Below are positions 36,658-57,766 of a stretch of DNA of 64,000 nucleotides, in pieces (position 1 is the stretch's first letter; every line of letters begins with the position of its first letter). The stretch is from assembly GCF_900091415.1 (NCBI RefSeq), contig NZ_FMHU01000002.1, positions 1,116,001 through 1,180,000 on the forward strand. Reading direction: 5' to 3'. Origin of the DNA: Micromonospora inyonensis (GTDB taxonomy: Bacteria; Actinomycetota; Actinomycetes; Mycobacteriales; Micromonosporaceae). A program made the translations under genes and the position numbers. Under the pieces are notes generated by a model. It did not search any database, was not told the origin of the DNA, and saw only the letters and a list, made by a program, of their open reading frames with translations.

Positions 36658-36891
36658 CTTCCCCTGCCCCTTGCGGGGCCGCCGTGGGGCGGGAAAATGG
36701 TGCCGCTCGTCCGGGTCGAGGTCGAACCGTCACTGATGCCTGAAGCTCGTGTCTCAGCTTGACCCTGGCAGCCGCGTACTTCGGGAGTCGTGGATTGTTG
36801 CCGTAAGAGCACGAGTACCAGATTCTTTGCCTCCCGCAGCTGCCGGCTCGGACGGCTATGTGATGTCGCGAGGGGAAGGAGACGGCAGGCC
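36658..36891 (+). ncRNA. Putative bridge RNA region of IS110 type B, copy 1
   Basis: The 234-base 5' region contains CTCAGCTT at 36753-36760, repeating the left junction at 36653-36660, and GTACCAG at 36815-36821, repeating the right end at 38180-38186. The second follows the GATTGTTGCC...GAGCACG scaffold shared with type A. A GC-rich hairpin (CCCCTTGCGGGG-like) lies near 36667-36685. Confidence 0.5.
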
Positions 36892-38145: not shown

Positions 38146-38186
38146 ACAGGTAAGACGATCAGTCACGGTCGTTATTTTCGTACCAG

Positions 38187-38420
38187 CTTCCCCTGCCCCT
38201 TGCGGGGCCGCCGTGGGGCGGGAAAATGGTGCCGCTCGTCCGGGTCGAGGTCGAACCGTCACTGATGCCTGAAGCTCGTGTCTCAGCTTGACCCTGGCAG
38301 CCGCGTACTTCGGGAGTCGTGGATTGTTGCCGTAAGAGCACGAGTACCAGATTCTTTGCCTCCCGCAGCTGCCGGCTCGGACGGCTATGTGATGTCGCGA
38401 GGGGAAGGAGACGGCAGGCC
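38187..38420 (+). ncRNA. Putative bridge RNA region of IS110 type B, copy 2
   Basis: Same sequence and same guide-like segments as in copy 1 (CTCAGCTT at about 38282-38289 and GTACCAG at about 38344-38350). Here it lies directly downstream of the right end of copy 1, so the donor-type joint (right end plus left end) exists in the chromosome. Confidence 0.5.
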
Positions 38421-39674
38421 GTGGATGTGCTGCATGATCGTTGTGCCGGGTTGGACATCAGCAAGCGGGACGTGAAGGCGTGCCTGCGGACCCCGGGAAC
38501 ACGGCGTAACCAGCGGCGAAGCGAGGTACGTACGTTCGCCACGACCACCAACGACCTGCTAGCGCTGCGGGACTGGCTGGTCGCCGAGCAGGTCAGCCTG
38601 GTCGTCATGGAAGGCACCGGCGACTACTGGCGGGCCCCGTACTACCTGCTCGAAGACGCCCTGAACGTGGAGTTGGTCAACGCTCGGCAGGTCAAGGCGA
38701 TGCCCGGACGCAAGACCGATGTGGCCGATGCGGTGTGGCTGGCACAACTGGCCGAGTGCGGGTTGCTACGGGCCAGCTTCGTGCCGCCCGAGCCGATCCG
38801 CCAGCTTCGCGATCTGACGCGGTACCGCACGGTACTGACCGAAGAGCGTACCCGGGAGGCCCAGCGGCTGGAGAAGGAGTTGGAGGACGCCGGGATCAAG
38901 CTGTCCAGCTTCGCCACCGACATCCTCGGTATCTCCGGGCGCGCCATGTTGGAAGCGCTCATCCGTGGAGAGCGCGACGCGCAGGTATTGGCGGAGATGG
39001 CGCGAGGCCGGATGCGGTCCAAGATTCCTGACCTGGCCCAGGCGATGATCGGCCGCTTCGGTGATCACCACGCGTTCCTGTGCCGGATGCATCTGGACCG
39101 CATCGATGCCATCAGCCGGGACATCGCCACGTTGAGCACCCGGATCGAGCGGGTGATGGCACCCTTTCGTGACCAGCTGACCCGGTTGGATGGCATTCCC
39201 GGGATCAGCCTCCGGGTCGCTGAGGTGATCATCGCGGAGACCGGTGGGGACATGTCCCGGTTCCCCACCGCCGGGCATCTGGCCTCCTGGGCCGGGGTGT
39301 CGCCCGGTAACCACGAATCCGGCGGCAAACGCAAGTCCGGCAAGACCACCAAAGGCAACCGGTGGCTGCGCGACGCCCTCGGCACCGCCGCGATGGCCGC
39401 GGCCCGTTCCAAGAACACCTACCTCGGCGCCCAGTACACCCGCCTCGTACGCCGACTCGGCAGCAAACCCAAGGCCCTGGTCGCCTTGGAACACTCCATC
39501 CTGACCTCCGTATGGCACATGCTCACCGACGGAACCGGCTACCAGGACCTCGGCGCCGACCACTTCCTACGCCGCGACCCCGAACGCGAACGCCGCCGCG
39601 CGATCGCCGCACTGAACAAGCTCGGCTACACCGTCACCCTCAACCCGATCGAACCCACCACGAAAGCCGCGTGA
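38421..39674 (+). CDS. IS110-family transposase, type B, copy 2
   Basis: The 417-residue protein is identical in sequence to copy 1, starting at GTG 38421. All catalytic residues are retained. The abutting right end of copy 1 lies upstream and could provide a junction promoter, as reported for circular IS110-type intermediates. Confidence 0.92.
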   Translation: MDVLHDRCAGLDISKRDVKACLRTPGTRRNQRRSEVRTFATTTNDLLALRDWLVAEQVSLVVMEGTGDYWRAPYYLLEDALNVELVNARQVKAMPGRKTDVADAVWLAQLAECGLLRASFVPPEPIRQLRDLTRYRTVLTEERTREAQRLEKELEDAGIKLSSFATDILGISGRAMLEALIRGERDAQVLAEMARGRMRSKIPDLAQAMIGRFGDHHAFLCRMHLDRIDAISRDIATLSTRIERVMAPFRDQLTRLDGIPGISLRVAEVIIAETGGDMSRFPTAGHLASWAGVSPGNHESGGKRKSGKTTKGNRWLRDALGTAAMAAARSKNTYLGAQYTRLVRRLGSKPKALVALEHSILTSVWHMLTDGTGYQDLGADHFLRRDPERERRRAIAALNKLGYTVTLNPIEPTTKAA

Positions 39675-44154: not shown

Positions 44155-44365
44155 GAGCTCGTACCCGGCACCGCCGCGTACCTCGTGCACTCGACCGCGC
44201 GGGCCGTTGAACGTCGAGCTGCTACGGGCCGCCGTCGACGCGACCGCCGCCCGGCACGACAGCCTCCGCATGCGGTTCACCGAGAACGCCGACGGCGAAC
44301 CCGTCGTGCACGTCGCCTCCGACGTGCGGGTGCCGGTCACCGTCCAAAACGCCAGCAGTTGTTAG
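44155..44365 (+). pseudogene. NRPS condensation-domain remnant
   Basis: The bases from 44155 code ELVPGTAAYLVHSTAR; after a one-base shift near 44200 they continue as GPLNVELLRAAVDATAARHD and SLRMRFTENADGEPVVHV. This is the N-terminal pattern of a condensation domain (EPG-AAYN...GPLD-ALRRALDA-VARHEALRTRF). The catalytic HHxxxDG motif is absent. It stops at 44365, overlapping the P450 stop on the other strand. Confidence 0.75.
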
Positions 44366-45567
44366 CCCTCGAGGTTGACGACCAGGTCGGCCAGGCCGCG
44401 TTGCACGAGCTGCTCCCGATAGGACGGCTCGGACGCTAGGGACATCGCGGGAAAGCGCCCGAGCAGCTCGGCGAGCGCGACGTCGACCAGCAGCTTGGCG
44501 AAGCTCGCGCCAAGGCAGTAGTGGGTGCCGAGCCCGAAGGCCAGCGGCGCGTTGCCCTCCCGGCCGACGTCGAACTCGTCCTGCCGCCCGAACCGTCGAG
44601 GATCCCGGTTCGCCGCCGCCAGGGTGAGCAGAACCCGTGAGCCGGCTGCGATGTGGACGCCGCCGAGCTCGAGGTCGCGGGCGGCGACGCGGGTCAGCAT
44701 GTGGATGGCGGGGTCGATGCGCACGGCCTCGGTGACGAAGTCCGCAAGCGTTCCCGGGTCCGCGACCAGGTCATGGGCGGGCAGGCGCCGGGAGACGACG
44801 AGCTGGACGGCGTTGCCGATGACGTCGCTCGGTGTCTGCGTGCCGGCGATGAGGAACAGGACCAGGCTGGCGACGAGCTCCTCCTCGGAGATCGCGCCGG
44901 TGGCGTCGCCGTCCCGGACCATGGTGCCGGTGAGGTCGTCCGAGGGGTGCCGCCGCCGGTGCCGGATCAGCTCGCGGAAATAGTCCGTGAGCACGTCCAT
45001 GCCCGCGTCGGCGGCAACCAGCTCGTCCTGGGTGAGGATGGGCTCGAACGCCGTTGTGCAGGCGAGTACGGGTACGCGCAGGGCGTCCCGGTCGCTCGAA
45101 GGTATGCCGAGCAGGTCGCCGGTCACCGCCATCGTGAACGGATACGTGTACGCCGCCACCAGGTCGACGCGTCCTGACAGGTCGGCGATCAGCGTCCTGC
45201 CCCGATCGACTGCGGCAGGCCGAAGGCGCGCGACCTGCCGCGGTGAGTAGGCGTCCCCGGCGAACTGGCGCAGCCGTCCGTGGTCGGGCTCGTTGCTGAA
45301 CATCATGATCTTGGTGAAGCACTGCCAGGTGGAGTGCGCGAGCAGACCGGTACGCCGGTGCGCGTCCGCGTCGGTGACCAGCAGGTCGCGGTGGCGCAGC
45401 GCGGCCGAGCACTCGTCGTAACCGAGGACCATGACCAGCTCTGGCCCGAGGCGGAAAGCAGGCCCGAGCGGCCACAACGCGTCATACAACGGGTACGGGT
45501 CCCGCTTGCCCTCGGCGGTGAACAGCCGCGCCAGCGCCTCACTCGGTCCCATTCCGACCAGCGTCAC
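44362..45567 (-). CDS. Cytochrome P450
   Basis: Soluble bacterial P450 of 401 residues starting at GTG 45567 (4-base overlap with the desaturase stop; ATG 45552 is an alternative). The I-helix reads LVLFLIAGTQTPSDVIG, the ExxR helix is FVTEAVRIDP (Glu...Arg), and the heme loop is APLAFGLGTHYCLGASFAKL with the Cys ligand. It is the last gene of the acyl-modifying operon. In the caryoynencin pathway a P450 performs late hydroxylation and double-bond shift on the fatty acyl chain (known for CayG); a similar tailoring role is inferred. Confidence 0.93.
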   Translation of the reverse strand: MTLVGMGPSEALARLFTAEGKRDPYPLYDALWPLGPAFRLGPELVMVLGYDECSAALRHRDLLVTDADAHRRTGLLAHSTWQCFTKIMMFSNEPDHGRLRQFAGDAYSPRQVARLRPAAVDRGRTLIADLSGRVDLVAAYTYPFTMAVTGDLLGIPSSDRDALRVPVLACTTAFEPILTQDELVAADAGMDVLTDYFRELIRHRRRHPSDDLTGTMVRDGDATGAISEEELVASLVLFLIAGTQTPSDVIGNAVQLVVSRRLPAHDLVADPGTLADFVTEAVRIDPAIHMLTRVAARDLELGGVHIAAGSRVLLTLAAANRDPRRFGRQDEFDVGREGNAPLAFGLGTHYCLGASFAKLLVDVALAELLGRFPAMSLASEPSYREQLVQRGLADLVVNLEG

Positions 45568-46646
45568 GAACCGCTCCCCTCGGGGGGCACTGGCGCTCCG
45601 GAGAACGTCTGGTAGAAACCGTTCCGAGCGTCGTACAGGTGCAGGTCCCGCAGGATCCGCCACAGGCTGAGCGGGCGCAGCCTCTCCTCGCGCACCACGC
45701 CGGGATAGGCGTGCCGCAGGGCGGCCTGGGCCTGGGGCAGGTTGTAGAACGGCACCGCCGGAGCCACGTGGTGTGCGGTGTGTACCGCGATGTTGTGGGT
45801 CAGGAAGTTGAGGAACCGCGGATAGACGAAGTCGGTGGTGAGTAGCAGCCGACCGGCGTTTCGGGTCCAGTGCTCGGAGGTGAGGAACGGCAGGTCGCTG
45901 GCGCTGTGGTGCATCAGCGTGGTGGCGCTGAACCACAGGTGGATCGCGAGCCACGGCACGAGGAAGCAGACGACGAACCCCTGCCACCCCGCCAGCACGA
46001 ACAGGCCCGCGACCAGGAGCAGGCCGGCCGGGGCGGTGAAGGCGATGGAGCGACGTACCTCACGGGCCGTCGACGCCTTCGGGAAGAAGCCGGGACGGAA
46101 CCCCGACACCAGCCAGTAACGGATGCTGCCACCCCAGAACGCCCACGTACGCGTCGCCGAGTACACGGCCCGCTCCCACCACTGCATCCGGGCGTACACC
46201 TGCGCCGGTACCGGCCGCCAGTCGGTGTCGAGCTCGAGGTTGTTCGTGTGGGCGTGATGCATGTTGTGCACGTGCCGCCACGATTGGTACGGGTACAGCA
46301 GCGGCAGCAGCGCTATGTGCCCGACATAGGTGTTGAGCCGCCGCGAACGGGAAAAGGACCCGTGTCCGCAATCGTGCGCGATGCAATGCAGACCCCAGCC
46401 GCCCAGTCCGGCCAGGACCCAGAGCGGCGGGTAGAGGTACCAGTGCGGTGCGAGCACGATCCCGGCAATCGAAACGGCATACAGGGAAAGGCTGACGCCA
46501 AATCCGAGCAGACCCCGACTGGTACGGGGGGTGAAAAGCGCCCTGGGTATCGCGGTCGTCAGATTCTCGCCCTCGAGCAGGCGGGACTTCTCCATGAAGT
46601 GGTGGAAGTCCGCCCCGGGCGAGGTGGGCACGCTAACTGCCGGCAT
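45564..46646 (-). CDS. Membrane fatty-acid desaturase (delta-12/omega-6 type, acetylenase-like candidate)
   Basis: The 360-residue membrane protein starts at ATG 46646, overlapping the acyl carrier protein gene. It carries the three His boxes of the family: HCIAHDCGHGSF, RHVHNMHHAHTNNLELDTDW and HNIAVHTAHHVAP. Several membrane helices lie between them. It differs from the other two desaturases encoded here, which are of delta-9 type. In polyyne clusters the equivalent enzyme (CayE position) adds unsaturation to the ACP-bound chain. Confidence 0.92.
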   Translation of the reverse strand: MPAVSVPTSPGADFHHFMEKSRLLEGENLTTAIPRALFTPRTSRGLLGFGVSLSLYAVSIAGIVLAPHWYLYPPLWVLAGLGGWGLHCIAHDCGHGSFSRSRRLNTYVGHIALLPLLYPYQSWRHVHNMHHAHTNNLELDTDWRPVPAQVYARMQWWERAVYSATRTWAFWGGSIRYWLVSGFRPGFFPKASTAREVRRSIAFTAPAGLLLVAGLFVLAGWQGFVVCFLVPWLAIHLWFSATTLMHHSASDLPFLTSEHWTRNAGRLLLTTDFVYPRFLNFLTHNIAVHTAHHVAPAVPFYNLPQAQAALRHAYPGVVREERLRPLSLWRILRDLHLYDARNGFYQTFSGAPVPPEGSGS

Positions 46647-46929
46647 GGGCCAGCATCCCTTGCGACTCGAGGTGCTCCACCACGGCGTCGATCGACCCGT
46701 AGTCGAACAGCAGAGCGGGCGAGAGGCGCTGCTCCACGAGACGTTCGAGCTGCCCGGTCAGCGTGATTCCCGCGCGCGAGTCGAGGCCGTAGTCCTCGAA
46801 GTTCCTGGCGGTGTCGATCTCCGCGGCCGGCACGCCGACCCGCTCGGCTACGTAGTTCGTCAGCCAGGTCCGCAGCGTGTCCGCGGTCAACGGGCCCTGC
46901 GGTTTTTCCACCTTTTTGAAAAAGGCCAT
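46633..46929 (-). CDS. Acyl carrier protein
   Basis: The 98-residue protein starts at ATG 46929, after AGGAGATTGACG, two bases past the stop of the preceding desaturase gene. The phosphopantetheine site is FEDYGLDSRAGITLTGQLE: the Ser is in DSR instead of the usual DSL. Helices fit an ACP (LRTWLTNYVAERVGVPAAEI, PALLFDYGSIDAVVEHLES). It would receive the activated fatty acid from the acyl-AMP ligase and present it to the desaturases. Confidence 0.92.
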   Translation of the reverse strand: MAFFKKVEKPQGPLTADTLRTWLTNYVAERVGVPAAEIDTARNFEDYGLDSRAGITLTGQLERLVEQRLSPALLFDYGSIDAVVEHLESQGMLAHAGS

Positions 46930-46931
46930 CG

Positions 46932-47855
46932 TCAATCTCCTATCCGTCGGCGCGCGACCGCCGTCGCGCTCGGTTCGTGCAGGTCCCAGGCGAGGCGCAG
47001 CCGGCCGAGCCCGGCGATGAGCCAGCCGCTGAGGTCGGGCTCCCACCACCGCACGGCGTGCCGGTACGAGCCGGGGAACGCGTGGTGGTTGTTCTGCAGC
47101 CCCTCGCCCATGGTCACCACGGCGACCCACCAGTTGTTCGTGCTCTGGTCGCGGGTGGCGAAGGGCCGGCTGCCGAATGCGTGGCAGATCGAGCCGACGC
47201 ACCAGGCCGCCTGGTTCGCGACGAAGATACGCGCCAGGCCGCCGAACACCAGCGCGGTCCCCGCGGCCTCGAGGCTCCCGCCGACCACGAGCCCGACCGC
47301 GGTGGGCAGGGCGAGGCCGAGCAGCACCCAGGCGGGATACATCCGGTGATGGGCCACGAGTTGCCGGTTGTGCAGGACGTCGGGCGCGAAGACGGACCAC
47401 TTCGAGTTCTCTTCGCTGAGCATCCACGGCATGTGTGCATACCAGAGGCCTTGTGCCCTTGCCTTCAAGCCCGTGCCGTGGAGGTTGGGCGAGTGTGGGT
47501 CGCCCTCCTGGTCGGCGAACTTGTGGTGCCGTCGATGCGTGGCGACCCAGAAGAGCAGCGGACCCTGGGCGCCCATCGAACCGGCCACCATGAGGACGTC
47601 GCGCACCCACGGCCGCGTCTTGAACGCACGGTGGGCGATGAGCCGGTGCAGGCCGATCGTGACGCCGCCGAGATGTACGAGGTACATCGCGCCGAACAGG
47701 ATCAGGTCGAGGGCGGTGACGTGGCCGGTCACGAGCAGCCAGACCGCTACGGCCGTACCGATCAGCGGCAGTGTCATGGTGGTAAGCGCGGAGAACCGTT
47801 TGATCCGCAGGCTCTGCGGGTCGAGCCGGACGATGCCGGCCTCAGCCACATTCAT
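46932..47855 (-). CDS. Acyl desaturase, delta-9 type (second in operon)
   Basis: The 307-residue protein starts at ATG 47855 after CGGAGG. His boxes are IGLHRLIAHRAF, ATHRRHHKFADQEGDPHSPN and EGLQNNHHAFPGSYRH, and four hydrophobic segments are visible. It is about 40 percent similar by eye to the 49231-50094 desaturase, suggesting gene duplication. The TnpB element ends just upstream of its ribosome site, so its expression now depends on read-through or a new promoter. Confidence 0.93.
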   Translation of the reverse strand: MNVAEAGIVRLDPQSLRIKRFSALTTMTLPLIGTAVAVWLLVTGHVTALDLILFGAMYLVHLGGVTIGLHRLIAHRAFKTRPWVRDVLMVAGSMGAQGPLLFWVATHRRHHKFADQEGDPHSPNLHGTGLKARAQGLWYAHMPWMLSEENSKWSVFAPDVLHNRQLVAHHRMYPAWVLLGLALPTAVGLVVGGSLEAAGTALVFGGLARIFVANQAAWCVGSICHAFGSRPFATRDQSTNNWWVAVVTMGEGLQNNHHAFPGSYRHAVRWWEPDLSGWLIAGLGRLRLAWDLHEPSATAVARRRIGD

Positions 47856-48010
47856 CGCAAACCTCCGTGGAAACCCCCGGCTTTAGCCGTGGGGAGGAAA
47901 CGGAACTCCGGCGGAGCCGGGCGGGGAAAGCCGGCCCGTCGCCAAGGCGGGTCGGTGTCCGTCCCCATGCCACCGGATTGCTTACCAGCTAGCTTGTTAG
48001 GCTGTGAGCC

Positions 48011-49216
48011 GTGACCAGGGCCGTGAAGCGGGCGTTCAAATTCCGCTTCTACCCGACCGGCGCGCAGGCCGCCGAGCTTGCCCGTACGTTCGGCTGTGTC
48101 CGGCTGGTCTACAACATGGCGTTGGCCGCCCGCACCGAGGCGTGGACGCTGCGCCAGGAACGGGTCAACTACAACGCCACCTCGGCGATGCTGACCACGT
48201 GGAAGAGGACCGACGACCTGGCGTTCCTCAACGAGGTGTCGTCGGTGCCGTTGCAGCAGACCCTGCGGCACCTGCAAGTCGCGTTCACCAACTTCTTCGC
48301 CAAGCGTGCCCGGTACCCCAGCTTCAAGAGCAAGAAGAAGTCGCGCCGGTCGGCGGAGTACACCACCAGCGGGTTCCGGTACCGCGACGGTCAGCTCACC
48401 CTGGCGAAGATGGCCGAACCGCTGGACATCGTGTGGTCCCGGCCGCTTCCCGAGGGCGCGAGGCCGTCCACGGTCACCGTGTCGCAGGACGCGGCCGGAC
48501 GTTGGTTCGTGTCTCTGCTCTGCGACGACGTGATCGAGCAGGCTCCGGCTTCGGGCATGGTGGGCGTTGACGCTGGGCTCGACAGCCTGCTGACCCTCTC
48601 TACCGGAGAGAAGTTCGCCAACCCGAGGTATGAGCGCCGCGACCGGGTCGCGCTCGCCAGGGCGCAGCGGGAGCTGGCCCGCAAGGCCAAGGGGTCCCAC
48701 AACCGGGCCAAGGCCCGGCTCAAGGTCGCCCGCGTGCACGCCCGGATCACCGACCGCAGGCGGGACCACCTGCACAAGCTGACCACTCGGCTCGTTCGTG
48801 AGAACCAAACGATCGTCGTCGAGGATCTGACCGTGCGTAACATGGTCACGAGTCACAGCCTGGCCCGCGCCATCAGCGACGCGGCCTGGCGGCAGTTCCG
48901 CACCCTGCTGGAATACAAAGCCGACTGGCACGGCCGCGACCTGGTGGTCGTGGACCGCTGGTTTCCGTCGTCCAAGCTGTGCTCGGCGTGTGGTGGGCTC
49001 GCTGAGCGGATGCCGCTGAACGTGCGGTCGTGGACCTGCCGATGCGGGCAGACCCACGACCGTGATGTCAACGCAGCCCGCAACATCCTCGCGGAGGGGC
49101 TCTCCGTGATTGCCTGTGGAGGCGGTGTAAGACCCCAACGGACGGACGTCCGGACGGGGCGGTCGTCGACGAAGCAGGAAACCCAGCGGGCGACCGCTGG
49201 AATCCCCCGCCTGTAG
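48011..49216 (+). CDS. tnpB: TnpB RNA-guided nuclease of IS1341-type element
   Basis: The 401-residue protein starts at GTG 48011. The N-terminal OrfB-type domain is KRAFKFRFYPTGAQAAELAR and FGCVRLVYNMALAARTEAW. RuvC residues are Asp in MVGVDAGLDSLLTLSTGE, Glu in QTIVVEDLTVRNMV and Asp in QTHDRDVNAARNILA. The zinc finger is CSACGG...CRCGQ. All catalytic residues are present. The C-terminal 30 residues overlap the expected omega-RNA region. Confidence 0.93.
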   Translation: MTRAVKRAFKFRFYPTGAQAAELARTFGCVRLVYNMALAARTEAWTLRQERVNYNATSAMLTTWKRTDDLAFLNEVSSVPLQQTLRHLQVAFTNFFAKRARYPSFKSKKKSRRSAEYTTSGFRYRDGQLTLAKMAEPLDIVWSRPLPEGARPSTVTVSQDAAGRWFVSLLCDDVIEQAPASGMVGVDAGLDSLLTLSTGEKFANPRYERRDRVALARAQRELARKAKGSHNRAKARLKVARVHARITDRRRDHLHKLTTRLVRENQTIVVEDLTVRNMVTSHSLARAISDAAWRQFRTLLEYKADWHGRDLVVVDRWFPSSKLCSACGGLAERMPLNVRSWTCRCGQTHDRDVNAARNILAEGLSVIACGGGVRPQRTDVRTGRSSTKQETQRATAGIPRL

Positions 49217-49236
49217 GCGCGGGGAGAAAGTCAAGC
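49130..49236 (+). ncRNA. Probable omega-RNA / right end of the TnpB element
   Basis: TnpB guide RNAs derive from the 3' end of tnpB plus the right end. The hairpin at 49205-49224, just after the coding end and before TCAAG, fits that position; the guide would then lie in the flanking desaturase gene. Confidence 0.5.
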
Positions 49237-50094
49237 TCTTCCTCCCTCGCCTTTCCCCGCGCGGTATCGCACGTCGTGTGCGAGGCCGAGCTTTTCGAAC
49301 ACCCGGATCACGCTTCCGGTCAGGTCCAGCTGCCAGAAGCTCTGGCGGTTGTGGGCGATCGACGGCTGCGCGTGGTGGTTGTTGTGCCAGGAGCCGCCGA
49401 CGGTGATCGGCGCGAGCCCGGCGATGTTGCCGCTGCCGTCTCGCGTCGGATGCGGCCGGTTGCCGATCAGGTGCCCGAGCGAGTTCACGGTCCAGGTGAC
49501 GTGGTCGAGCACGAACATGCGGGCGAACCCGCCCCACAGCAGCCCCGCGAGGGCGTCGACTGGGCGGCCGGTGACCGCGAAGGCACCCAGAGCTGGCAGG
49601 ACGAGCCCTGCACCGACCCACCAGGCGTAATAGCGGTCGATCGTCATCACCCGCCGGTCGTGCAGCAGGTCGGTGACCCGGCGGTCCCAGCCGGTCTGGT
49701 CCACCGTGAACAGCCAGCCCATATGGCCGTGCCAGAAGCCGGCCAGCGCACCGGCCAGACCCGGACCCCGCGGCCTCGGCGAATGCGGGTCGCCGTCACG
49801 GTCGGCGAAGGCGTGATGCTTGCGGTGCACCGAGACCCAGAACAGAATCGTCCCCTGCGCCGCCATGCTCCCGGCGATTCCCAGCGCGGCGGTCAGGACC
49901 GGCCCAGCCCTGAAGGACCGATGCGTAAAGAAGCGGTGCAGCCCGCCCTCGACGCCGATCGAGGTCACGAGGTACATGCCGGTGAAGACCGCGAGATGCC
50001 ACCAGTGGAAGCCGCTGAGGACCTCGAGCACGATCGCGCCTGCGAAGCCCGCGGTCGAGAGCAGGACGTGGAGGTACGCCCACCGCCGCATCAT
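49231..50094 (-). CDS. Acyl desaturase, delta-9 type (first in operon)
   Basis: The 287-residue protein starts at ATG 50094, overlapping the acyl-AMP ligase stop (ATGA). His boxes are EGGLHRFFTHRSF, SVHRKHHAFADRDGDPHSPR and GGSWHNNHHAQPSIAHNRQ. The last codons and stop are formed at the TnpB element's right end, so the natural C-terminus may have been slightly changed. All metal ligands are intact. Confidence 0.92.
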   Translation of the reverse strand: MMRRWAYLHVLLSTAGFAGAIVLEVLSGFHWWHLAVFTGMYLVTSIGVEGGLHRFFTHRSFRAGPVLTAALGIAGSMAAQGTILFWVSVHRKHHAFADRDGDPHSPRPRGPGLAGALAGFWHGHMGWLFTVDQTGWDRRVTDLLHDRRVMTIDRYYAWWVGAGLVLPALGAFAVTGRPVDALAGLLWGGFARMFVLDHVTWTVNSLGHLIGNRPHPTRDGSGNIAGLAPITVGGSWHNNHHAQPSIAHNRQSFWQLDLTGSVIRVFEKLGLAHDVRYRAGKGEGGRA

Positions 50095-51647
50095 CGGGTG
50101 CCCGCCGACAGGTACTCCTCCCGGGTATGCCGGCGGCGTGGCTTGCCACTGGTGGTCATCGCGATGGTGCCGGGCCGTACGAGCCGTACGTCCGAGGGCC
50201 TTACGCCGTGGTCCGCCGTGACCGCCGCGACGATGCGGCCCTCGAGCTGTGCGAGTTCGTCGGCGCGTCTGACTTCGGCCATGACCACCAACCTCTCCTC
50301 GGTCCCGGGCACTGAGAAGGCGACCGCCCGGCGGATCCGCGCGTCGGTCGCGAGGACGGACCGCTCGATGTCGTGCGGGTAGAGGTTTCGTCCCGCGATG
50401 ATGACGAGATCGTTGAGCCGGCCGGTGACGAACAGTTCGCCTCCGCGCAGATAGCCCAGATCCCCGGTGCGCAGAATCCCCGCCTCGAACGTCCGGGCCG
50501 TCAGCTCCGGCCTTTGGTAGTAGCCGGCCGCGACTGCGGGCCCGAACACTCGGACCTCCCCGACCTCGCCCTCAGGAAGATCGCGTCCGGACTCGGGCTC
50601 GACAATGCGTAACTGGACGTCGCTCGCCGGGCGGCCGCAGCTGACCACTTCGGTCCCGTCGAGGCGCTCGAACCGGAGCGGGTCGCCTTCGGCCCGGGCG
50701 GTCACCATCAGGGTCGCCTCGGCCAGCCCGTAACAAGGGATCAACGCGGCGGGGTTGAAGCCGTACGGCTCGAAGCGTTCCTGGAAGCGGCGCAGCACGG
50801 CGGGTGAGATGGGCTCCGAACCACAGAAGAGGTGCCGCAGGCTCGACAGGTCGACCGCGTCTTCTGCGTCGCACATCTCGAGGGCGAAGTTGGGCGCGAC
50901 CGAGATCGTGGCCCGATAGTCCGAGACCGCCTGTAGCCACCGGGACGGTCGCTGCACGAAGTGCCCGGGCGACATCATCACCAACGGCCAGCCTCCGTAC
51001 AGCGCCAGCATGAGGGTCCCGACCATCCCCATGTCGTGATAAGGAGGCAGCCAGGAAACCCCTACCCGCTCCGGGTCCTCACCGATCCGCTCCGAGATCG
51101 AGCGACAGTTGCTCACCAGATTGGCGTGGGTGAGCACGATGGCCTTTGGATCATCCGTCGACCCTGAGGTGTACTGCAGAACGGCCGGTGCGGACGGCGG
51201 CTCATCCGGGACGCGGCGGGCAGGCTCCGACCTTCCGACCGGTGCGACGATGACCGGTACGCCGAGATCCGCCACCGCCTCGCACGACTCCGCGATCACC
51301 GCACACGGGGCACAGTCGTCGACGATCGCGGAAACGTGCCGGGCCGTCCGCCGCGACGTCGGCGGATAGGCGGGTACGGCCGTAGCCCCGGCCTGCAGCA
51401 CCCCGAAGAGCGCAGCCACGTAGTCAAGCCCCGGCGGCAACGCCAGAACAACTCGCGTCCCGGGCTCCACGAACCGGGCAACCGCCGAAGCCCGCTCGTA
51501 CAGCTCAGCGTAGCTCCAGCTCACGGCACTACCGCTCGTACCGCCAACCAAGAACCGGTAGGCAACGCGATCCGGCTCCTCCGCGGCCCGGGCAGCCAAG
51601 ATCCCCGGCAACCATCCAGTGGCGGCCACAGTCCCCCCTCTTCGCAT
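50091..51647 (-). CDS. Fatty acyl-AMP ligase (FAAL)
   Basis: Activates a free fatty acid as acyl-AMP and loads it on the ACP. The ~518-residue protein has VLQYTSGSTDDPKAIVLTHA (phosphate loop), the FAAL hallmark VSWLPPYHDMGMVGTLMLAL, IPCYGLAEATLMVTARAEGD, LRTGDLGYLRGGELFVTGRL and the C-terminal Lys region TTSGKPRRRHTREEY. I chose ATG 51647 because it overlaps the stop of a small upstream ORF (TGATG); GTG 51629, behind AGAGGGGGG, is a good alternative. It is the first enzyme gene of the operon (CayA/JamA position). Confidence 0.93.
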   Translation of the reverse strand: MRRGGTVAATGWLPGILAARAAEEPDRVAYRFLVGGTSGSAVSWSYAELYERASAVARFVEPGTRVVLALPPGLDYVAALFGVLQAGATAVPAYPPTSRRTARHVSAIVDDCAPCAVIAESCEAVADLGVPVIVAPVGRSEPARRVPDEPPSAPAVLQYTSGSTDDPKAIVLTHANLVSNCRSISERIGEDPERVGVSWLPPYHDMGMVGTLMLALYGGWPLVMMSPGHFVQRPSRWLQAVSDYRATISVAPNFALEMCDAEDAVDLSSLRHLFCGSEPISPAVLRRFQERFEPYGFNPAALIPCYGLAEATLMVTARAEGDPLRFERLDGTEVVSCGRPASDVQLRIVEPESGRDLPEGEVGEVRVFGPAVAAGYYQRPELTARTFEAGILRTGDLGYLRGGELFVTGRLNDLVIIAGRNLYPHDIERSVLATDARIRRAVAFSVPGTEERLVVMAEVRRADELAQLEGRIVAAVTADHGVRPSDVRLVRPGTIAMTTSGKPRRRHTREEYLSAGTR

Positions 51648-51760
51648 CACGCAGACGCGTGCTCAAGGGTACCGCTGATGTCGATGTTGGCACCCAGCGC
51701 GAACAGGGGGTTGAGAAAAATGGGACTGGACACGCCAACGCCGGGAAGCGTTTCGGTCAC
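51647..51760 (-). CDS. Possible 37-residue peptide gene upstream of the FAAL
   Basis: GTG 51760, preceded by AAGGGG, opens a 37-codon frame (VTETLPGVGVSSPIFLNPLF, then ALGANIDISGTLEHASA). It overlaps the upstream frame's stop (GTGA) and the FAAL start (TGATG). The double overlap suggests translational coupling. It has a hydrophobic centre. I do not recognise it; it could be a leader peptide or the end of a broken gene. Confidence 0.4.
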   Translation of the reverse strand: MTETLPGVGVSSPIFLNPLFALGANIDISGTLEHASA

Positions 51761-52059
51761 CCCTTGATCCGTAGCACCTGCACGGCGCGGTCGATCACCG
51801 GCTCGGCGACCCCGTAGTGCTCCGCGCGTGCCAACGGCATCACCCGCTCGCTCCACGTCGGACCCGAGGAACATCGATCGCAATCCAGAAGGTCGCAAGG
51901 CTGCACGTCAGCTGCCGCGTGAATCGAGCCAGTTCCCGGGCAATCGGCCCGGCGGCCCGCCGCCGAGCCGTTCTCATGGAGTGCCACGACGCCGAGGCGA
52001 CGGTGCGTGCCACCCTCGCCCTCGGCGTCGCCACGTCGGTAGCCGCGAGTGTCCTGCAC
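51757..52059 (-). CDS. Doubtful upstream ORF, up to 100 residues
   Basis: The frame ends with WSERVMPLARAEHYGVAEPV and IDRAVQVLRIKG, which reads like the C-terminus of a real protein. The N-terminal part, with several Cys and Gly/Arg-rich stretches, does not. It may be the remains of a gene that once headed the acyl operon. No family recognised. Confidence 0.3.
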   Translation of the reverse strand: MQDTRGYRRGDAEGEGGTHRRLGVVALHENGSAAGRRADCPGTGSIHAAADVQPCDLLDCDRCSSGPTWSERVMPLARAEHYGVAEPVIDRAVQVLRIKG

Positions 52060-52087
52060 GCAAAGCCGAGCCCGATCAGCCGGTGGA

Positions 52088-52984
52088 TCAACTCGATGCC
52101 GCGACTGCCGCTTTCGCCTGATGCCCGAGGCGGTAGGCGTCGCCCTCAGGCAGCACGTGTCCGCCGGTCGGAGCGGGGAAGTGGCTGCCCAGTAGGAGGG
52201 TGCCGGTGCCGGCGAGCGAGGCGAGCAGCCGTCGGCGGGTGGCCTCGGCCTGGGTTGCGTCGATGTCGACGCAGGAGCTCAGCGAGGGATGGGCCAACTG
52301 GACGGGGTGGTGGACGGCGTCGCCCGAGATCAGTGCTGTCTCTCCCGCACTGCTGAGGTGGACGGAGATGTGGCCGGGGGTGTGGCCGGGGGTGGGTAGC
52401 AGCCGCAGCCCCGGGGCGATCTCGATCCCGTCGCCGGGGACCTCGACGGGCTCGAGCAGACCGGCCTGTTCCACCGGGAGCACCGAGTCCTCGAACATCT
52501 GCCGGCGCGGCGCGTCCATTGCGTACCCGGCCCAGAAGTCGCGCTCCACGCGGGAGGTGATGTAGCGGGCGTTGCCGAAGGTGGGAACCCAGGTTCCGCT
52601 GACCTCGTGGGTGTTCCAGCCGACGTGGTCGGTGTGCAGGTGGGTCAGCACGACCAGGTCGACGGAGTCCGGCGTGAACCCGACGCTACGCAGGTTGTCC
52701 TGGTAGGTGGTGTCGAGGTTGTGCCAGGCCGGGTTGGCGCGGCTCTTGCCGTTGCCGATGCCGGTGTCGACGAGCACCCGCAGTCCTTCGGTCTCGACGG
52801 CGAAGCTGTGGCTGTGCAGGCGCAGTTCGGCGTCGGGGCTGGCGAAGTCGGGGCGTAGCCAGTCCTGCCGGGCGACCAGCTCGGGGGTCGCGTCCGGCAG
52901 CAGCCACTGCCCGGTCTGTGGGGCGAGCAGCAGTTCGTCGATGCGGTGGATGGTGATGGAGCCTACGGTCCAGGTGGCGGTCAT
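52088..52984 (-). CDS. MBL-fold metallohydrolase
   Basis: The 298-residue protein starts at ATG 52984. It has the zinc site VVLTHLHTDHVGWN (HxHxDH), later His in RLLPTPGHTPGHISVHL, Asp in ALISGDAVHHPVQLAHP and a C-terminal GSHFPAPTGGHVL. It resembles the quorum-quenching/N-acyl-lactonase-like and related hydrolases. It is 6 bases downstream of the MFS gene and probably co-transcribed; the substrate is unknown. Confidence 0.9.
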   Translation of the reverse strand: MTATWTVGSITIHRIDELLLAPQTGQWLLPDATPELVARQDWLRPDFASPDAELRLHSHSFAVETEGLRVLVDTGIGNGKSRANPAWHNLDTTYQDNLRSVGFTPDSVDLVVLTHLHTDHVGWNTHEVSGTWVPTFGNARYITSRVERDFWAGYAMDAPRRQMFEDSVLPVEQAGLLEPVEVPGDGIEIAPGLRLLPTPGHTPGHISVHLSSAGETALISGDAVHHPVQLAHPSLSSCVDIDATQAEATRRRLLASLAGTGTLLLGSHFPAPTGGHVLPEGDAYRLGHQAKAAVAASS

Positions 52985-52990
52985 GGCGCT

Positions 52991-54232
52991 TCAGTGTCCT
53001 TCGGTGTTGGGGATCGAACGGGAAGCCAGGGCGAGCACCACCGAGGCGGCGAGTCCGAGCAGGACGGTGCCCATGGCGTAGACGTGCGTGGCGGTGGCGA
53101 GACCGGACATGCGGGCGACGGCGCCCACCGCGACGGCGGGCAGGCTCATCGCCAGGTAGTTGACGATGGAGCACACGGCGACGACCGCGGCTCGGTGGCG
53201 CTCGCCGACCGGTGCGGTGACCATGCGTATGCTGCCCTGGTTGACCATGCCGAACGCGGCGCCGGCCAGTACCGCCCCGCCGAGCAGCGCGGGCGGTCCG
53301 CCGCCGTGCAGAGCGGCCACGGTCAGTACCGCGGCGAGGGGTACGGCCAGGCTGCCGACCCGAACTGCCGCGCGGGGTGCCGCTCGGGTGAGCAGCACAA
53401 CCGGTACGGCGGTGACCGTCACAGCGAGGAAGATCAGGCCGCCTGCCGCGAGGGGCAGGGCCGGGGCGATGTGCAGCAGCAGGGACGGGCCGAGCGAGGA
53501 GTGGAAGCCGCCGAGCGCCCAGACCGCCACCATCGCCGCGGCCAGGATCCGCAGTTCGCGGCGAGCCGTCGCGGGCACCCGGAGCTGACGGCGCGGTGGG
53601 GCCGAGCTGATCTGCGTTGCGCCGGTCGTCGCAGTCGCCGTGGCGGGGGCGGACGGCCGCATGGAGCCGGGCGGTCGAAGTCGCGGCTCTGGCCCTGTGA
53701 GGAGCATCGCTGCCCCGGCGATGAACAGGACCGCCAGCGCGAGGTAGATCATCACGGTGTTCTCAGGGCGGAGGTAGACGAGCGCGGTCGCGGCTACGAC
53801 GCCGAGCGCCATCCCTGCGGGGGGTGCGACGCTGTTGGCCACCGCACCGCGTCCCGGGCGACCGGGGGCTTCGAGGTCCAGCAGGGCGGCGCCGACCGCC
53901 CCGATGGCCACGCCGGTGGCGATTCCCTGCACGACCCGCGCGGCGATCAGCAGGCCGGGCCCGGAGGCAACAGCCAGCAGCAGCATCGCGACCGCCTGGA
54001 CGATCAGGGCGATCACGGTGACCGGTTTACGGCCGTAGCGGTCGGACAGGGTGCCGGCGAGCAGTAGCGCCAGCAGCAACCCCACGGGGTAGACGGCGAA
54101 GACGACGCTGATCGTGAGTTCCGAAAGTTTCCACTGCTGCTGGTAGAGCGGGTAGAGCGGGGTGGGCGCGCTGGAGGCGGCCAGCAGTGCGATGAGCACC
54201 GCCGCGTACCGGGGGAACAGTCCCGCTGGCAT
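52991..54232 (-). CDS. MFS transporter (DHA1-type)
   Basis: The 413-residue inner-membrane protein starts at ATG 54232. It has about 12 hydrophobic helices and the loop 2-3 motif LAGTLSDRYGRKPVTVIAL typical of major facilitators, plus GAVGAALLDLEAPGRPGRGA in the central loop region. It could export or import the compound handled by the divergent amidase and the MBL hydrolase. Two operator-like sites lie directly upstream. Confidence 0.9.
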   Translation of the reverse strand: MPAGLFPRYAAVLIALLAASSAPTPLYPLYQQQWKLSELTISVVFAVYPVGLLLALLLAGTLSDRYGRKPVTVIALIVQAVAMLLLAVASGPGLLIAARVVQGIATGVAIGAVGAALLDLEAPGRPGRGAVANSVAPPAGMALGVVAATALVYLRPENTVMIYLALAVLFIAGAAMLLTGPEPRLRPPGSMRPSAPATATATTGATQISSAPPRRQLRVPATARRELRILAAAMVAVWALGGFHSSLGPSLLLHIAPALPLAAGGLIFLAVTVTAVPVVLLTRAAPRAAVRVGSLAVPLAAVLTVAALHGGGPPALLGGAVLAGAAFGMVNQGSIRMVTAPVGERHRAAVVAVCSIVNYLAMSLPAVAVGAVARMSGLATATHVYAMGTVLLGLAASVVLALASRSIPNTEGH

Positions 54233-54243
54233 GACACCTCCAC

Positions 54244-54266
54244 TTAAAGCTATCCGTTTGCGTTAG
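54244..54266 (+). promoter_or_regulatory. TetR operator candidate, site 1
   Basis: TTAAAGCTATCCGTTTGCGTTAG just upstream of the MFS start. The same 23-base pattern occurs inverted at 54290-54312 and again at 55847-55869. Confidence 0.75.
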
Positions 54267-54289
54267 TGGACCGTAGCCCGTATCGTTCT

Positions 54290-54312
54290 CTAACGCAAAC
54301 CGTTAGCTTTAA
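54290..54312 (-). promoter_or_regulatory. TetR operator candidate, site 2
   Basis: Inverted copy of site 1 (reads TTAAAGCTAACGGTTTGCGTTAG on the minus strand, 3 mismatches or fewer), 13 bases ahead of the AtzG-like start. Sites 1 and 2 together flank the divergent promoters. Confidence 0.75.
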
Positions 54313-54325
54313 GTGGAGGACGTGC

Positions 54326-54541
54326 ATGACCACCCCCCTGACGCCCCCGGAGGCGGCCGCTCTCGCCGCCCGTGCCGGGCTGCTGGTCGAGGAAGCCCGG
54401 CACGCCGGGCTGGCGGCGGCAACCAACCACATCCACGACGCCGTCAAGGTCCTGCGGGAGCTCGACTTCGGCGACACACCACCGGCCTTCGTGTACGAGG
54501 CCGGCACGCGTCGACAGAAGGATGACCATGCAGCTGCCTGA
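54326..54541 (+). CDS. AtzG-like small protein, partner of the amidase
   Basis: The 71-residue protein starts at ATG 54326 after GTGGAGGACG. It is helical (PPEAAALAARAGLLVEEARH, TNHIHDAVKVLRELDFGDTP, PAFVYEAG), like DUF4089/AtzG proteins that stabilise AtzE-type amidases (known for the cyanuric acid pathway). It overlaps the amidase start by about 20 bases. Confidence 0.75.
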   Translation: MTTPLTPPEAAALAARAGLLVEEARHAGLAAATNHIHDAVKVLRELDFGDTPPAFVYEAGTRRQKDDHAAA

Positions 54542-55850
54542 CCTGTCGCTTACCGAACTCGCCGCGGCGATCCAGGCTCGCGAACTCTCGCCCGTCGAGC
54601 TGGTCGACGCCGTGCTGGAGCGCGCCGAGCGCACGGAACCCCAGCTCAACGCGTACTCCGCGATCGACGCCGACGGAGCGCGCGAGGCGGCGCACGCCGC
54701 CGAACGCGCGCTGGCCGCCGGCCGGGACGCTGGCCCGCTCGCCGGCATCCCGGTCGGCATCAAGGACCTCATCGACATCGAGGGCAGACCCACCGGTGCG
54801 GGCTCCGGGGTGCGCGACGGCCACCGCGCCGAGAAGGACAGCGCGGTGGTGTCGAGTCTGCGCGACGCTGGGGCGATCTTGCTCGGCAAGACCCACACCC
54901 ACGAGTTCGCCTACGGTCTGATCACGCCGCAGACGCGCAACGCCGTCAACGGCGACAGGGTGGCCGGCGGATCCAGCGGAGGGTCCGCGGCAGCCGTGGC
55001 CGCGGGCAGCGCCACCTTCGCCCTCGGCACCGACACCGGCGGCTCGATCCGCGTCCCGGCCGCCCTCAACGGCGTGGTGGGCCTCAAGCCCACGTACGAC
55101 CTCGTGTCCCGCCAGGGCGTCACGTCACTGTCGTGGTCCCTGGACCACGTCGGACCGATCACGCGTACGGTCGCCGACGCCGCTCTCGCCCTCTCCGCCC
55201 TCACCGGGCGCCGCGCCGCGCTGCACACCGACCTGCGCGGAATTCGCGTGGGCGTGCCGCGGAACTACTACTTCGACCGGCTCGACCCGCAGGTCGAGAG
55301 GGCGGTGCTCGCCGCCGTCGACAAGCTCGCCGCGCTGGGCGCCACCCTCGTCGACGTGGACATCCCGATGACGCGCTACCTCGTCCCCGCGCAGTTGGTG
55401 ATCATGCTGGCCGAGGCGAGCGCCTACCACGAGCACACCCTGCGCGCCGCCGCCGACCTGTACGGCGAGGACGTCCGCGGCCTGCTCGAAGCCGGCGGGC
55501 TGCTGGGCGCCGGCGAATACCTGCGCGGCCAGCGTGCCCGCACCCTGGTCCGGGAGGCATGGTCAGGGCTGTTCACCGAGGTCGACGTCCTCGCCGCTCC
55601 GACCGTGCCGATCACCGCGGTTCCGATCGGACAGGAGAACATCGTCTGGCCGAACGGGGAGGTAGAGAGCGTGACGGACGCGTACGTGCGGCTCTGTGCT
55701 CCCGCGAACCTGACCGGTTTTCCCGCTCTGAGCGTTCCGGTTGGCTTCGACGACGACGCCCTGCCGATTGGCCTGCAGCTGATCGGAGCACCCTTCACCG
55801 AGGACGTCCTGCTGCGCGTCGGTCTGGCCCACGAGGAGGCTACCGGTTAA
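54522..55850 (+). CDS. Amidase signature family hydrolase (AtzE-like)
   Basis: The 442-residue protein starts at ATG 54522 (ATG 54528 possible). The Ser-Ser-Lys triad is visible: Lys in [16 protein letters not shown], cis-Ser in [16 protein letters not shown], and the nucleophile Ser in [18 protein letters not shown]. With an AtzG-like partner it probably hydrolyses a small amide such as a urea derivative or carbamoyl compound. The stop TAA is part of operator site 3. Confidence 0.9.
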
Positions 55851-55869
55851 AGCGAAATGTTTGCCTTAG
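55847..55869 (+). promoter_or_regulatory. TetR operator candidate, site 3
   Basis: TTAAAGCGAAATGTTTGCCTTAG overlaps the amidase stop and lies 11 bases before the TetR start; it matches sites 1 and 2 apart from the central bases. This position suits autoregulation. Confidence 0.65.
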
Positions 55870-55879
55870 GCTGGTGGCC

Positions 55880-56464
55880 ATGAGCCGCAAGCCCATGGCA
55901 CGCCCCGGTGGCCGCAGCACCCGCATCCAGAGGTCGGTACACGACGCGGTGCGCGCCCTGTTGGCCGAGACCGACCGCGACAACCTGACCGTCCCGATGA
56001 TCGCCGCTCGGGCCGGTGTCACCCCCTCGACCATCTACCGGCGCTGGGGTGACCTGCAGGAACTGCTGTCGGACGTGGCCGTCGAACGGCTGCGGCCCGA
56101 GGCGGCGCCCGAGGACCACGGCTCCTTCGCGGAAGATCTCGCCGCCTGGGCCGAGTCCTTCCTCGACGAGATGTCCTCACCACCGGGGAAGGCCTACATC
56201 CGGGACGCACTGCTCGGCGATCCCGACGGCACCAACGCCGGGCAGTGCTCCGCCTACGCCGCAGAGCAGATCAACATCATCCTCGCCCGCGCCACCGAAC
56301 GGCAGGAACCGACACCTCCCCTGGAGGCGGTCATGGACCAACTGGTCGCGCCGATCATGTACCGCATCCTGTTCCGTCCCGACGGCCTCGGCGAAGCACA
56401 CCTGCGCACCCTGCTCTACCGGGCGACCAACGCCGGCGGTCAGAGGGGTGACCGAAGTGCGTAG
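55880..56464 (+). CDS. TetR-family repressor
   Basis: The 194-residue protein starts at ATG 55880. The N-terminal helix-turn-helix is LTVPMIAARAGVTPSTIYRR followed by WGDLQELLSDVAVERL. The C-terminal ligand domain has LEAVMDQLVAPIMYRILFRP, typical of the TetR_C_16-like group. It probably represses both the MFS and amidase operons through the shared sites. The stop lies directly against the left end of a TnpB element, so the last residues may be altered. Confidence 0.9.
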   Translation: MSRKPMARPGGRSTRIQRSVHDAVRALLAETDRDNLTVPMIAARAGVTPSTIYRRWGDLQELLSDVAVERLRPEAAPEDHGSFAEDLAAWAESFLDEMSSPPGKAYIRDALLGDPDGTNAGQCSAYAAEQINIILARATERQEPTPPLEAVMDQLVAPIMYRILFRPDGLGEAHLRTLLYRATNAGGQRGDRSA

Positions 56465-56506
56465 CGCGCAAGCCCCCGGCTTCAGCCGTGGGGTTAGCGC
56501 ATCCAA

Positions 56507-56534
56507 CTGAAACAGTAGTGTGCTAGTGTTTCAG
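56507..56534 (+). promoter_or_regulatory. Inverted repeat directly upstream of tnpB
   Basis: CTGAAACA and its inverse TGTTTCAG are separated by 12 bases, and the repeat ends one base before the tnpB ATG at 56536. It could act as an operator for autoregulation or sequester the start codon in an RNA hairpin. Confidence 0.5.
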
Positions 56535-56535
56535 T

Positions 56536-57678
56536 ATGTCGAGTCGAGTGGTGAAGCGGGCGTACAGGTTCCGCTTCTACCCCACCGACCAGCAGCGGGA
56601 GCTGCTGAACCGGACGTTCGGCTGCGTGCGCTACGTCTACAACCGGGCGCTGGCCGAGCGGTCCCGCGCCTGGACACAGGAACAGCGGCGGGTCACGTTC
56701 GCCGAAACCTGCCGGATGCTCACCGCATGGAAGAACGAGCCCGACACGGCTTGGCTGTACGAGGTGTCGAACGTGGCACTTCAGCAGTCGTTGCAGCACC
56801 TTCAGCAGGCGTACGTGAACTTCTGGGCGAAGCGGGCGACGTATCCGACGTTCAAGTCCAAGCGCACGTCGAAGGCGTCAGCCACGTTCACCACGTCAGG
56901 GTTCTCGTTCCGCGACGGGCAGATCACACTGGCGAAGACGGACGTCCCGCTGGACATCGTGTGGTCCCGGCCCCTGCCCGAGGGCGCTCAACCGTCCACG
57001 GTCACGGTGTCCCGCGACGCGGCGAACCGCTGGCACATCTCGATCCTGGTGGAAGAGACCATCGTGGTTCTGCCGCCGGCAACCCGGGCGGTCGGGATCG
57101 ACGCTGGGATCACCTCGCTGGTCACCCTTTCCACCGGGGAGAAGGTCACCAATCCGCGGCACGAGCAGCGGGATCGGGAGCGGCTGGCCGTGGCGCAGCG
57201 GCGGTTGGCCCGCACGGCGAAGGGCTCCCACAATCGGGCCAAGGCGCGGCTCAAGGTGGCCCGGGTGCACGCCCGGATCGCCGACCGGCGGCGGGATCAC
57301 CTGCACAAGCTGTCCACGAGGATCATCCGCGAGAACCAAACGGTGGTCATCGAGGACCTGTCGGTCCGCAACATGGTCCGCAATCACAGCCTTGCCCGAG
57401 CGATCTCGGACGCGGCGTGGTCGCAGTTGCGGCGACAGTTGGAGTACAAGGCCGACTGGTACGGACGCACGGTCATCGCGATCGACCGGTTCTATCCGAG
57501 CAGCAAGACGTGCTCGGCGTGCGGCGTGGTTGTGGAGAAGCTGCCGTTGAGCGTCCGGGGGTGGGTGTGTCGCTGCGGCGCGACCCACGACCGGGACGTG
57601 AATGCGGCGAAGGCGATTTTGGCGGCGGGGCTCGCCGTGTCAGCCTGCGGAGATGGCGTGAGACCGTCCCGCGTCTAG
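56536..57678 (+). CDS. tnpB: TnpB RNA-guided nuclease, second copy
   Basis: The 380-residue protein starts at ATG 56536. RuvC residues are Asp in AVGIDAGITSLVTLSTGE, Glu in QTVVIEDLSVRNMVRNH and Asp in ATHDRDVNAAKAIL. The zinc finger is CSACGV...CRCGA. It is about 60 percent identical by eye to the 48011 protein. All catalytic residues are intact. Confidence 0.93.
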   Translation: MSSRVVKRAYRFRFYPTDQQRELLNRTFGCVRYVYNRALAERSRAWTQEQRRVTFAETCRMLTAWKNEPDTAWLYEVSNVALQQSLQHLQQAYVNFWAKRATYPTFKSKRTSKASATFTTSGFSFRDGQITLAKTDVPLDIVWSRPLPEGAQPSTVTVSRDAANRWHISILVEETIVVLPPATRAVGIDAGITSLVTLSTGEKVTNPRHEQRDRERLAVAQRRLARTAKGSHNRAKARLKVARVHARIADRRRDHLHKLSTRIIRENQTVVIEDLSVRNMVRNHSLARAISDAAWSQLRRQLEYKADWYGRTVIAIDRFYPSSKTCSACGVVVEKLPLSVRGWVCRCGATHDRDVNAAKAILAAGLAVSACGDGVRPSRV

Positions 57679-57766
57679 CGCGGGAAGGCGACCGTCGATG
57701 AAACAGGAAGATCCAACCGTGAGGTTGGAATCCCCCGGCTTTAGCCGTGGGAAGGATGTCAAGTGA
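57679..57766 (+). ncRNA. Probable omega-RNA 3' part of the second TnpB element
   Basis: Bases after the tnpB stop include a short G/C stem (57680-57690 region) and the right-end hairpin at 57732-57751, where the guide RNA scaffold is expected. Confidence 0.45.

Follow-up and report, generated by a model that had tools for sequence, protein, structure and literature searches.

The window analysed here, a 64,000-nucleotide stretch of the Micromonospora inyonensis genome (contig NZ_FMHU01000002.1, positions 1,116,001 to 1,180,000), carries on its minus strand a block of six genes that is very probably a polyyne biosynthesis operon of the actinobacterial type without a thioesterase. The block encodes, in this order, a fatty acyl-AMP ligase (FAAL), two SCD-like desaturases (DesB and DesC), an acyl carrier protein (ACP), a third desaturase (DesE) and a cytochrome P450 (Table 1). 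The operon is real and conserved, and belongs to a published yet uncharacterised type; we infer its chemistry, product, release and expression from gene content and sequence comparison. A first-pass annotation of the same DNA had proposed this gene order, which is borne out by the Pfam domains, and had seen no thioesterase, and none lies inside the six-gene block. It had also described mostly overlapping junctions. These are present at FAAL/DesB and DesE/P450 (4 nt each) and at ACP/DesE (14 nt), and DesC and ACP are separated by 2 nt, but DesB and DesC are split by a 1.4-kb insertion element.

In the proposed pathway, the FAAL would form an acyl-AMP from a fatty acid and load the chain onto the ACP. 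The three di-iron membrane desaturases DesB, DesC and DesE would then convert the ACP-bound chain to a conjugated polyyne, which the P450 would oxidise. FadD23, FadD28 and FadD32, all of them FAALs, are among the nearest solved structures of the ligase. Its start codon was picked by comparison with the corresponding locus of a sister genome of the same genus (G237, locus L039), and its Pfam scan was done on a longer open reading frame (ORF) beginning at 51650. The general order of polyyne clusters given in the available part of PMC9098870 is likewise FAAL, two desaturases, ACP, desaturase. The caryoynencin cluster cay of Trinickia caryophylli and Burkholderia gladioli also combines a FAAL and an ACP with desaturases CayB, CayC and CayE, but includes the thioesterase CayF and a rubredoxin, neither of which was found here. 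The protegencin cluster pgn of Pseudomonas protegens shares the FAAL and the desaturase triad; its PgnH is a desaturase-thioesterase didomain, whereas DesE consists of a single desaturase domain.

A profile of DesE retrieved 55 loci in named genomes, most of which hold FAAL, DesB, DesC, ACP and DesE in one order; some end at contig ends. Eight distant loci, from seven cyanobacteria and one spirochaete (L089, L091-L095, L097 and L099), gave no FAAL, ACP or thioesterase matches. At the cyanobacterial loci (L089, L091-L095 and L097), one or two DesE-like desaturases lie near a DesC-like one, at about 29-38% identity.

A maximum-likelihood tree was computed from 129 rows of SCD-like desaturases (122 different), after removal of rows whose match covered <60% of the query or contained stops. 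The window DesB falls within a clade of 44 polyyne-locus rows (support 100/97) and the window DesC within a clade of 45 (support 100/100), and the 40 other desaturase rows fall outside both. The loci were picked by DesE alone, so their selection did not depend on DesB or DesC. Neither protein groups with ordinary acyl-CoA desaturases, the outcome that the first-pass annotation had named as speaking against a polyyne pathway, and its polyyne reading is supported both by these placements and by the joint occurrence of FAAL, ACP and three desaturases. DesE was assigned by similarity only; its best named relatives are actinobacterial desaturases, followed by those of Paraherbaspirillum and Burkholderia.

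The clade of DesC is marked by a single residue. The first position of the third histidine box is Gln in all 45 polyyne DesC rows and His in the 44 DesB rows and the 40 others, so that the motif QNNHH occurs in 45/45 polyyne DesC rows and in 0/84 other rows. This Gln aligns with the first His of the HNYHH box of SCD1, through which SCD1 coordinates its di-iron centre; the pattern QxxHH is also present in front-end desaturases. DesB has a substitution of its own, Gly instead of Glu before the third box, in 44/44 rows. The ACP site is DSR, as the first-pass annotation had read it, but its idea that this might be a special adaptation does not hold: among 49 sites read (DSR 33, DSI 12, DSA 2, DSL 1 and DSM 1), DSR occurs in all 33 ACPs from actinobacterial polyyne loci.

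These residues also bear on the reading that the operon makes an alkyne, in the manner of JamABC, or a plain alkene. The jamABC cassette likewise consists of a FAAL, a desaturase and an ACP, and no product of the operon is known. Against this reading, the operon has the full set of three desaturases, with DesB and DesC placed in polyyne clades. In addition, the FAAL-linked desaturases of four other family genomes (L040, L041, L043 and L044) have His at the position of the DesC Gln and sit outside the polyyne clades. An alkyne or alkene product is therefore considered improbable. The operon also differs from jamABC in its surroundings: no polyketide synthase (PKS) or nonribosomal peptide synthetase (NRPS) domain occurs among the window genes scanned (five called genes were outside the scan).

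According to the available part of Mullins et al. (2021; PMC8406139), the seven-gene polyyne cassette includes a thioesterase and a rubredoxin, and in 10 actinobacterial genomes both appear replaced by a P450. The same text reports the desaturases as essential in pgn and cay, the protegencin and caryoynencin clusters, and the thioesterase as essential in cay. The version with a P450 and without a thioesterase is already published, and is not new. As a type, the present operon agrees with that P450 subclade, as far as the available text describes it, in gene content, in the absence of thioesterase and rubredoxin and in forming a single subclade within the polyyne clade. It differs in two respects: the P450 is here orthologous to that of the thioesterase-type clusters, and an insertion element interrupts the operon. 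What the present sequence comparisons add, with no claim that it is absent from print, is the genome-wide evidence for thioesterase loss, the P450 orthology and the DesC marker residue.

Five of the 55 named loci (L045, L046, L047, L056 and L090) match the operon in all six genes and in their order, and likewise contain neither thioesterase nor rubredoxin. Their hosts are Streptomyces griseoruber, S. coacervatus, S. sp. yr375, Amycolatopsis pithecellobii, in which the FAAL was read as two pieces at a contig end, and Kibdelosporangium banguiense. Nocardia colli (L069) has an operon of the same type with no DesB seen at the locus. A thioesterase is found at 0/7 loci of this type versus 21/21 other actinobacterial loci bearing this P450 family. 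With a Streptomyces cluster protein (L054) as the query, the absence first remarked for the operon extends to the whole genome in 8/8 genomes of this type, in which nothing convincing was retrieved (best E 1.5e-5 over 52 residues); in M. inyonensis itself, the search yielded nothing better than 31% identity across 91 residues (E 9.8e-4). By contrast, strong matches were obtained in 4/4 control genomes, with E 8.4e-48 or better. The rubredoxin profile PF00301 found nothing in the two genomes searched, M. inyonensis and G237, but does recognise the rubredoxins of two thioesterase-type clusters. Because no rubredoxin was found, electrons would have to come from another carrier.

Loci with the P450 and without a thioesterase form a subclade in each tree: eight rows for DesC (100/99), seven for DesB (98/94) and eight for the P450 (100/99). 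When six other genomes were searched, the top match in each was an orthologue of the P450 located in the polyyne cluster of that genome. The P450 tree contains one clade of 29 (support 100/98), divided into these eight and 21 of the thioesterase type, and the I-helix follows the split, with AG.Q[ST]PSD in 8/8 and A[AG].EAP.D in 21/21. A gain of the P450 in exchange for the thioesterase is disfavoured, since the orthologue is present at each of the 21 P450 loci of the thioesterase type in the tree. As judged from these trees, the P450 appears to have been retained rather than recruited as a substitute; the simplest reading would be a single loss of both thioesterase and rubredoxin. Two polyyne loci of Streptomyces griseofuscus (L064 and L065) lie near opposite chromosome ends and encode the same P450 sequence, as would be expected of terminal repeats.

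Because no CayF-type thioesterase was found in the genome, release is expected to proceed via a non-homologous enzyme or by hand-over of the chain. The leading candidate, which we give about an even chance and rank above operon-coupled release or transfer, is a non-homologous hydrolase encoded elsewhere in the genome. The operon might instead free its own product, the P450, or the FAAL with the P450, releasing the chain without need of a thioesterase; the product would then be something other than a free polyynoic acid. Such a route would fit the genome-wide disappearance of the thioesterase in 8/8 genomes in which the other genes persist, and the difference in the I-helix between the two types, although the latter is one clade-level change that may be drift. 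P450BioI acts on acyl-ACP, and its structure (3ejb) is the best solved relative of the P450 (1.9e-52), but CYP164A2 is nearly as close (2e-51). No further gene was found to be shared beside all eight operons, with the upstream side of L047, which starts inside the operon, not covered. We know of no P450 that by itself frees a chain from an ACP, which counts against self-release, and we regard it as unlikely.

Transfer of the ACP-bound polyyne to another assembly line, or its amidation by an asparagine-synthase-like enzyme, is given similarly little weight. An Asn_synthase/GATase protein adjoins three of the eight operons (L047, L056 and L090; Pfam was run on two), and M. inyonensis encodes a relative at 46% identity (C2:2958977). 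JamA-type loading feeds a PKS/NRPS line in jamaicamide biosynthesis, as stated in the available part of PMC11837247. On the other hand, G237 has the same operon with weaker relatives only (best 36% over 396 residues), and the window genes scanned hold no such assembly line.

A search with DesC in 300 family genomes (E up to 1e-50) retrieved M. inyonensis itself (100%) and G237 (97%), with the next best of the matches listed at 47%. The block common to both genomes corresponds to window positions 44363-51725, with 97% DNA identity, and L039 has all six operon genes. Ka/Ks between the two genomes is 0.25 over the six genes (0.06-0.32 for individual genes), which suggests selection on the operon proteins in at least one lineage; given this value and the 97% identity, the block is not a chance assembly. 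Beyond it, window positions 51893-56451, with genes for a metallo-hydrolase, a major facilitator superfamily (MFS) transporter and an amidase, map to a different part of G237, at about 0.22 Mb compared with 2.29 Mb. Because the shared block stops at the end of the operon and these neighbours map elsewhere, the hydrolase and the transporter were left out of the operon.

The position of the metallo-hydrolase would make it a candidate release enzyme, with the MFS protein as exporter: it adjoins the operon upstream on the same strand and is intact. Yet the shared block ends before it is reached, its 97% identical copy in G237 lies ~2 Mb from the polyyne block, and no match was found near other polyyne loci. 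This pair was rejected on its location in G237 and the lack of a match at other polyyne loci, and we consider such roles very improbable. A hydrolase encoded elsewhere in the genome remains the preferred candidate.

The element between DesB and DesC follows TCAT at their junction and comprises little else than tnpB (1206 of its 1375 bp), with no transposase gene inside. It shares the TnpB domains and the lack of room for a transposase gene with the TnpB-only, IS1341-like elements of the IS605 family. The element is absent from G237, where DesB and DesC overlap. Three full-length copies (97-100%) are present in M. inyonensis. On the tnpB strand, TCAA terminates all three, and all three follow TCAT, which is an ATGA start on the opposite strand, in front of DesC, gatB and malate synthase. 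On the operon strand, the element ends in GGAGGTTTGCG, directly followed by the DesC ATG; at the empty site of G237, GGAGGAGGAGC precedes the same ATG. At the far end, TTGA supplies a stop codon for DesB that is lacking in the empty site. Because the element kept both reading frames intact and places GGAGG six bases before DesC, as a putative substitute Shine-Dalgarno sequence, the operon may still be expressed. No match to a sigma-70-type promoter, a model little informative in actinomycetes, was found in 47700-52100, and Rfam at gathering thresholds gave no match in the window.

Several points weigh against a functional polyyne operon. No metabolite is known for it. The element may be polar: four terminator-like sites occur in 47700-52100 versus 2.0 +/- 1.6 in shuffles, and three of the four lie inside the element on the operon strand. 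Most polyyne loci in the tree are without a proven product and were gathered by similarity to DesE, the outside rows amount to only 35 different sequences, and JamB is not included. The completeness of the assembly is not stated for the six named genomes without a thioesterase. Finally, T. caryophylli cannot do without the thioesterase according to the available text of PMC8406139, and its loss could therefore mean a different or a non-functional pathway.

The start-codon position of the element was also seen at its relatives. A genus search with a pattern of the element end that did not contain TCAT gave six copies in 3/160 genomes, all six at gene starts. A looser search of 394 genomes of the class gave matches in four genomes. 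These were the three known copies; L159, L161 and L163, which have CCTCC ends and are at starts in 3/3 cases; L160, also at a start; and five CTTCC-type copies in M. inyonensis. For the CTTCC-type elements of M. inyonensis the pattern is not clear, with only 2/5 at gene starts. In another family, 49 of 341 genomes gave a match, and one locus was read in each of 30 of them (L170-L199). No element end was seen at L183; the remaining 29 adjoin TCAT (26), TCAC, a GTG start (2), or TTAT (1), and a credible gene start, for which the frame had to stay open over >=60 codons and show the codon-position GC of actinomycetes, is present at 25/29 (exceptions: L180, L190, L192 and L198). With L179, a repeat of L159, counted once, CCTCC-type elements stand at a credible gene start in 33/37 distinct places (L101, L102, L152-L157, L159, L161, L163 and L170-L199); the same rule gives 34/39 when L183 and the repeat are counted.

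The presence of GGAGG proves nothing in these loci because it was part of the search patterns. Independent of the patterns are the gene starts and the distance from GGAGG to the start, which is six bases in most loci and five in L173 and L184. As a baseline, the window has 264 TCAT sites on both strands versus 12 ATGA starts among its 37 called genes, or 4.5% (upper bound 14%). Pfam families were matched by 20/20 of the invaded genes analysed (20 of the 33, picked by recognisable product and not at random), and in 14/20 the first domain starts within 25 residues and within the first eight profile positions, like true N-termini. The invaded genes include gatB, malate synthase, a MoxR-like ATPase and short-chain dehydrogenases. 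A control with outward-open TCAT sites in the host flanks, of which 52/172 pass versus 34/39 element sites, is not discriminating because in-frame Met codons within the same genes pass too.

Taken together, this TnpB-only family probably settles precisely at start codons in a manner built for low harm: the GGAGG end would replace the ribosome-binding site of the gene, and the TTGA end can close an overlapping upstream frame. Both target preference and selection for harmless sites may contribute. HEARO elements likewise use ATGA/GTGA sites; the present elements differ from these and from IS605-type elements in lying exactly at start codons and in having GGAGG in the element end, and no HEARO RNA match was found up to E 1 in window positions 47700-49400. 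The start-codon habit may be a newer observation than the operon, with no claim that it is absent from print.

Two candidate genes near the operon were discarded. A 589-aa ORF on the minus strand between DesB and DesC was judged spurious because it has no Pfam match and its codon-position GC is unlike that of the neighbouring genes. A short ORF ahead of the FAAL was rejected as a conserved peptide, its frame being lost in L039 as judged by eye. Two further mobile elements were observed. A second TnpB element occupies window positions of about 56450-57762; two copies at 98-99% identity are present elsewhere in the genome, and the matching stretch of G237 breaks at its border. Two tandem IS110-type transposase genes, matching each other in length and Pfam scores, lie at 36790-39674, ~5 kb downstream of the P450.

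Table 1. Features of the polyyne operon, its insertion element and the adjoining genes (window positions).
Feature	Position	Strand	Evidence and remarks
FAAL, 512 aa	50091..51629	-	PF00501 3e-71, PF23024; GTG start 51629
DesB, SCD-like desaturase 1	49231..50094	-	PF00487 7e-15; boxes HRFFTH / HRKHH / GGSWHNNHH
DesC, SCD-like desaturase 2	46932..47855	-	PF00487 3e-21; third box GEGLQNNHH
ACP, 98 aa	46633..46929	-	PF00550 5e-14; GLDSR site
DesE, third desaturase (FA_desaturase), 360 aa	45564..46646	-	PF00487 2e-38; boxes HDCGH / HNMHH / HTAHH
Cytochrome P450, 401 aa	44362..45567	-	PF00067; I-helix AGTQTPSD, heme site FGLGTHYCLG
TnpB-only insertion element	47856..49234	+	1375 bp + TCAA; follows TCAT at DesB/DesC junction
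tnpB, 401 aa	48011..49216	+	OrfB_IS605, Cas12f1-like_TNB, HTH_OrfB_IS605
Element end GGAGG-TTTGCG	47856..47866	-	directly before DesC ATG; putative substitute Shine-Dalgarno sequence
TTGA at far element end	49231..49234	-	DesB stop codon
Metallo-beta-lactamase-fold hydrolase	52088..52984	-	PF00753; neighbour, judged outside operon
MFS transporter	52991..54232	-	PF07690; inside the 51893-56451 stretch; neighbour, judged outside operon

According to the available text of PMC8406139, no gene cluster had been assigned to any actinobacterial polyyne by 2021. An operon that lacks a thioesterase essential elsewhere makes the release step directly testable, and the His-to-Gln change of DesC provides a one-residue marker for genome mining as well as a mechanistic handle. 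If confirmed, the habit of settling at start codons while supplying a ribosome-binding site would make this element a clear example of mobile DNA adapted for little harm.

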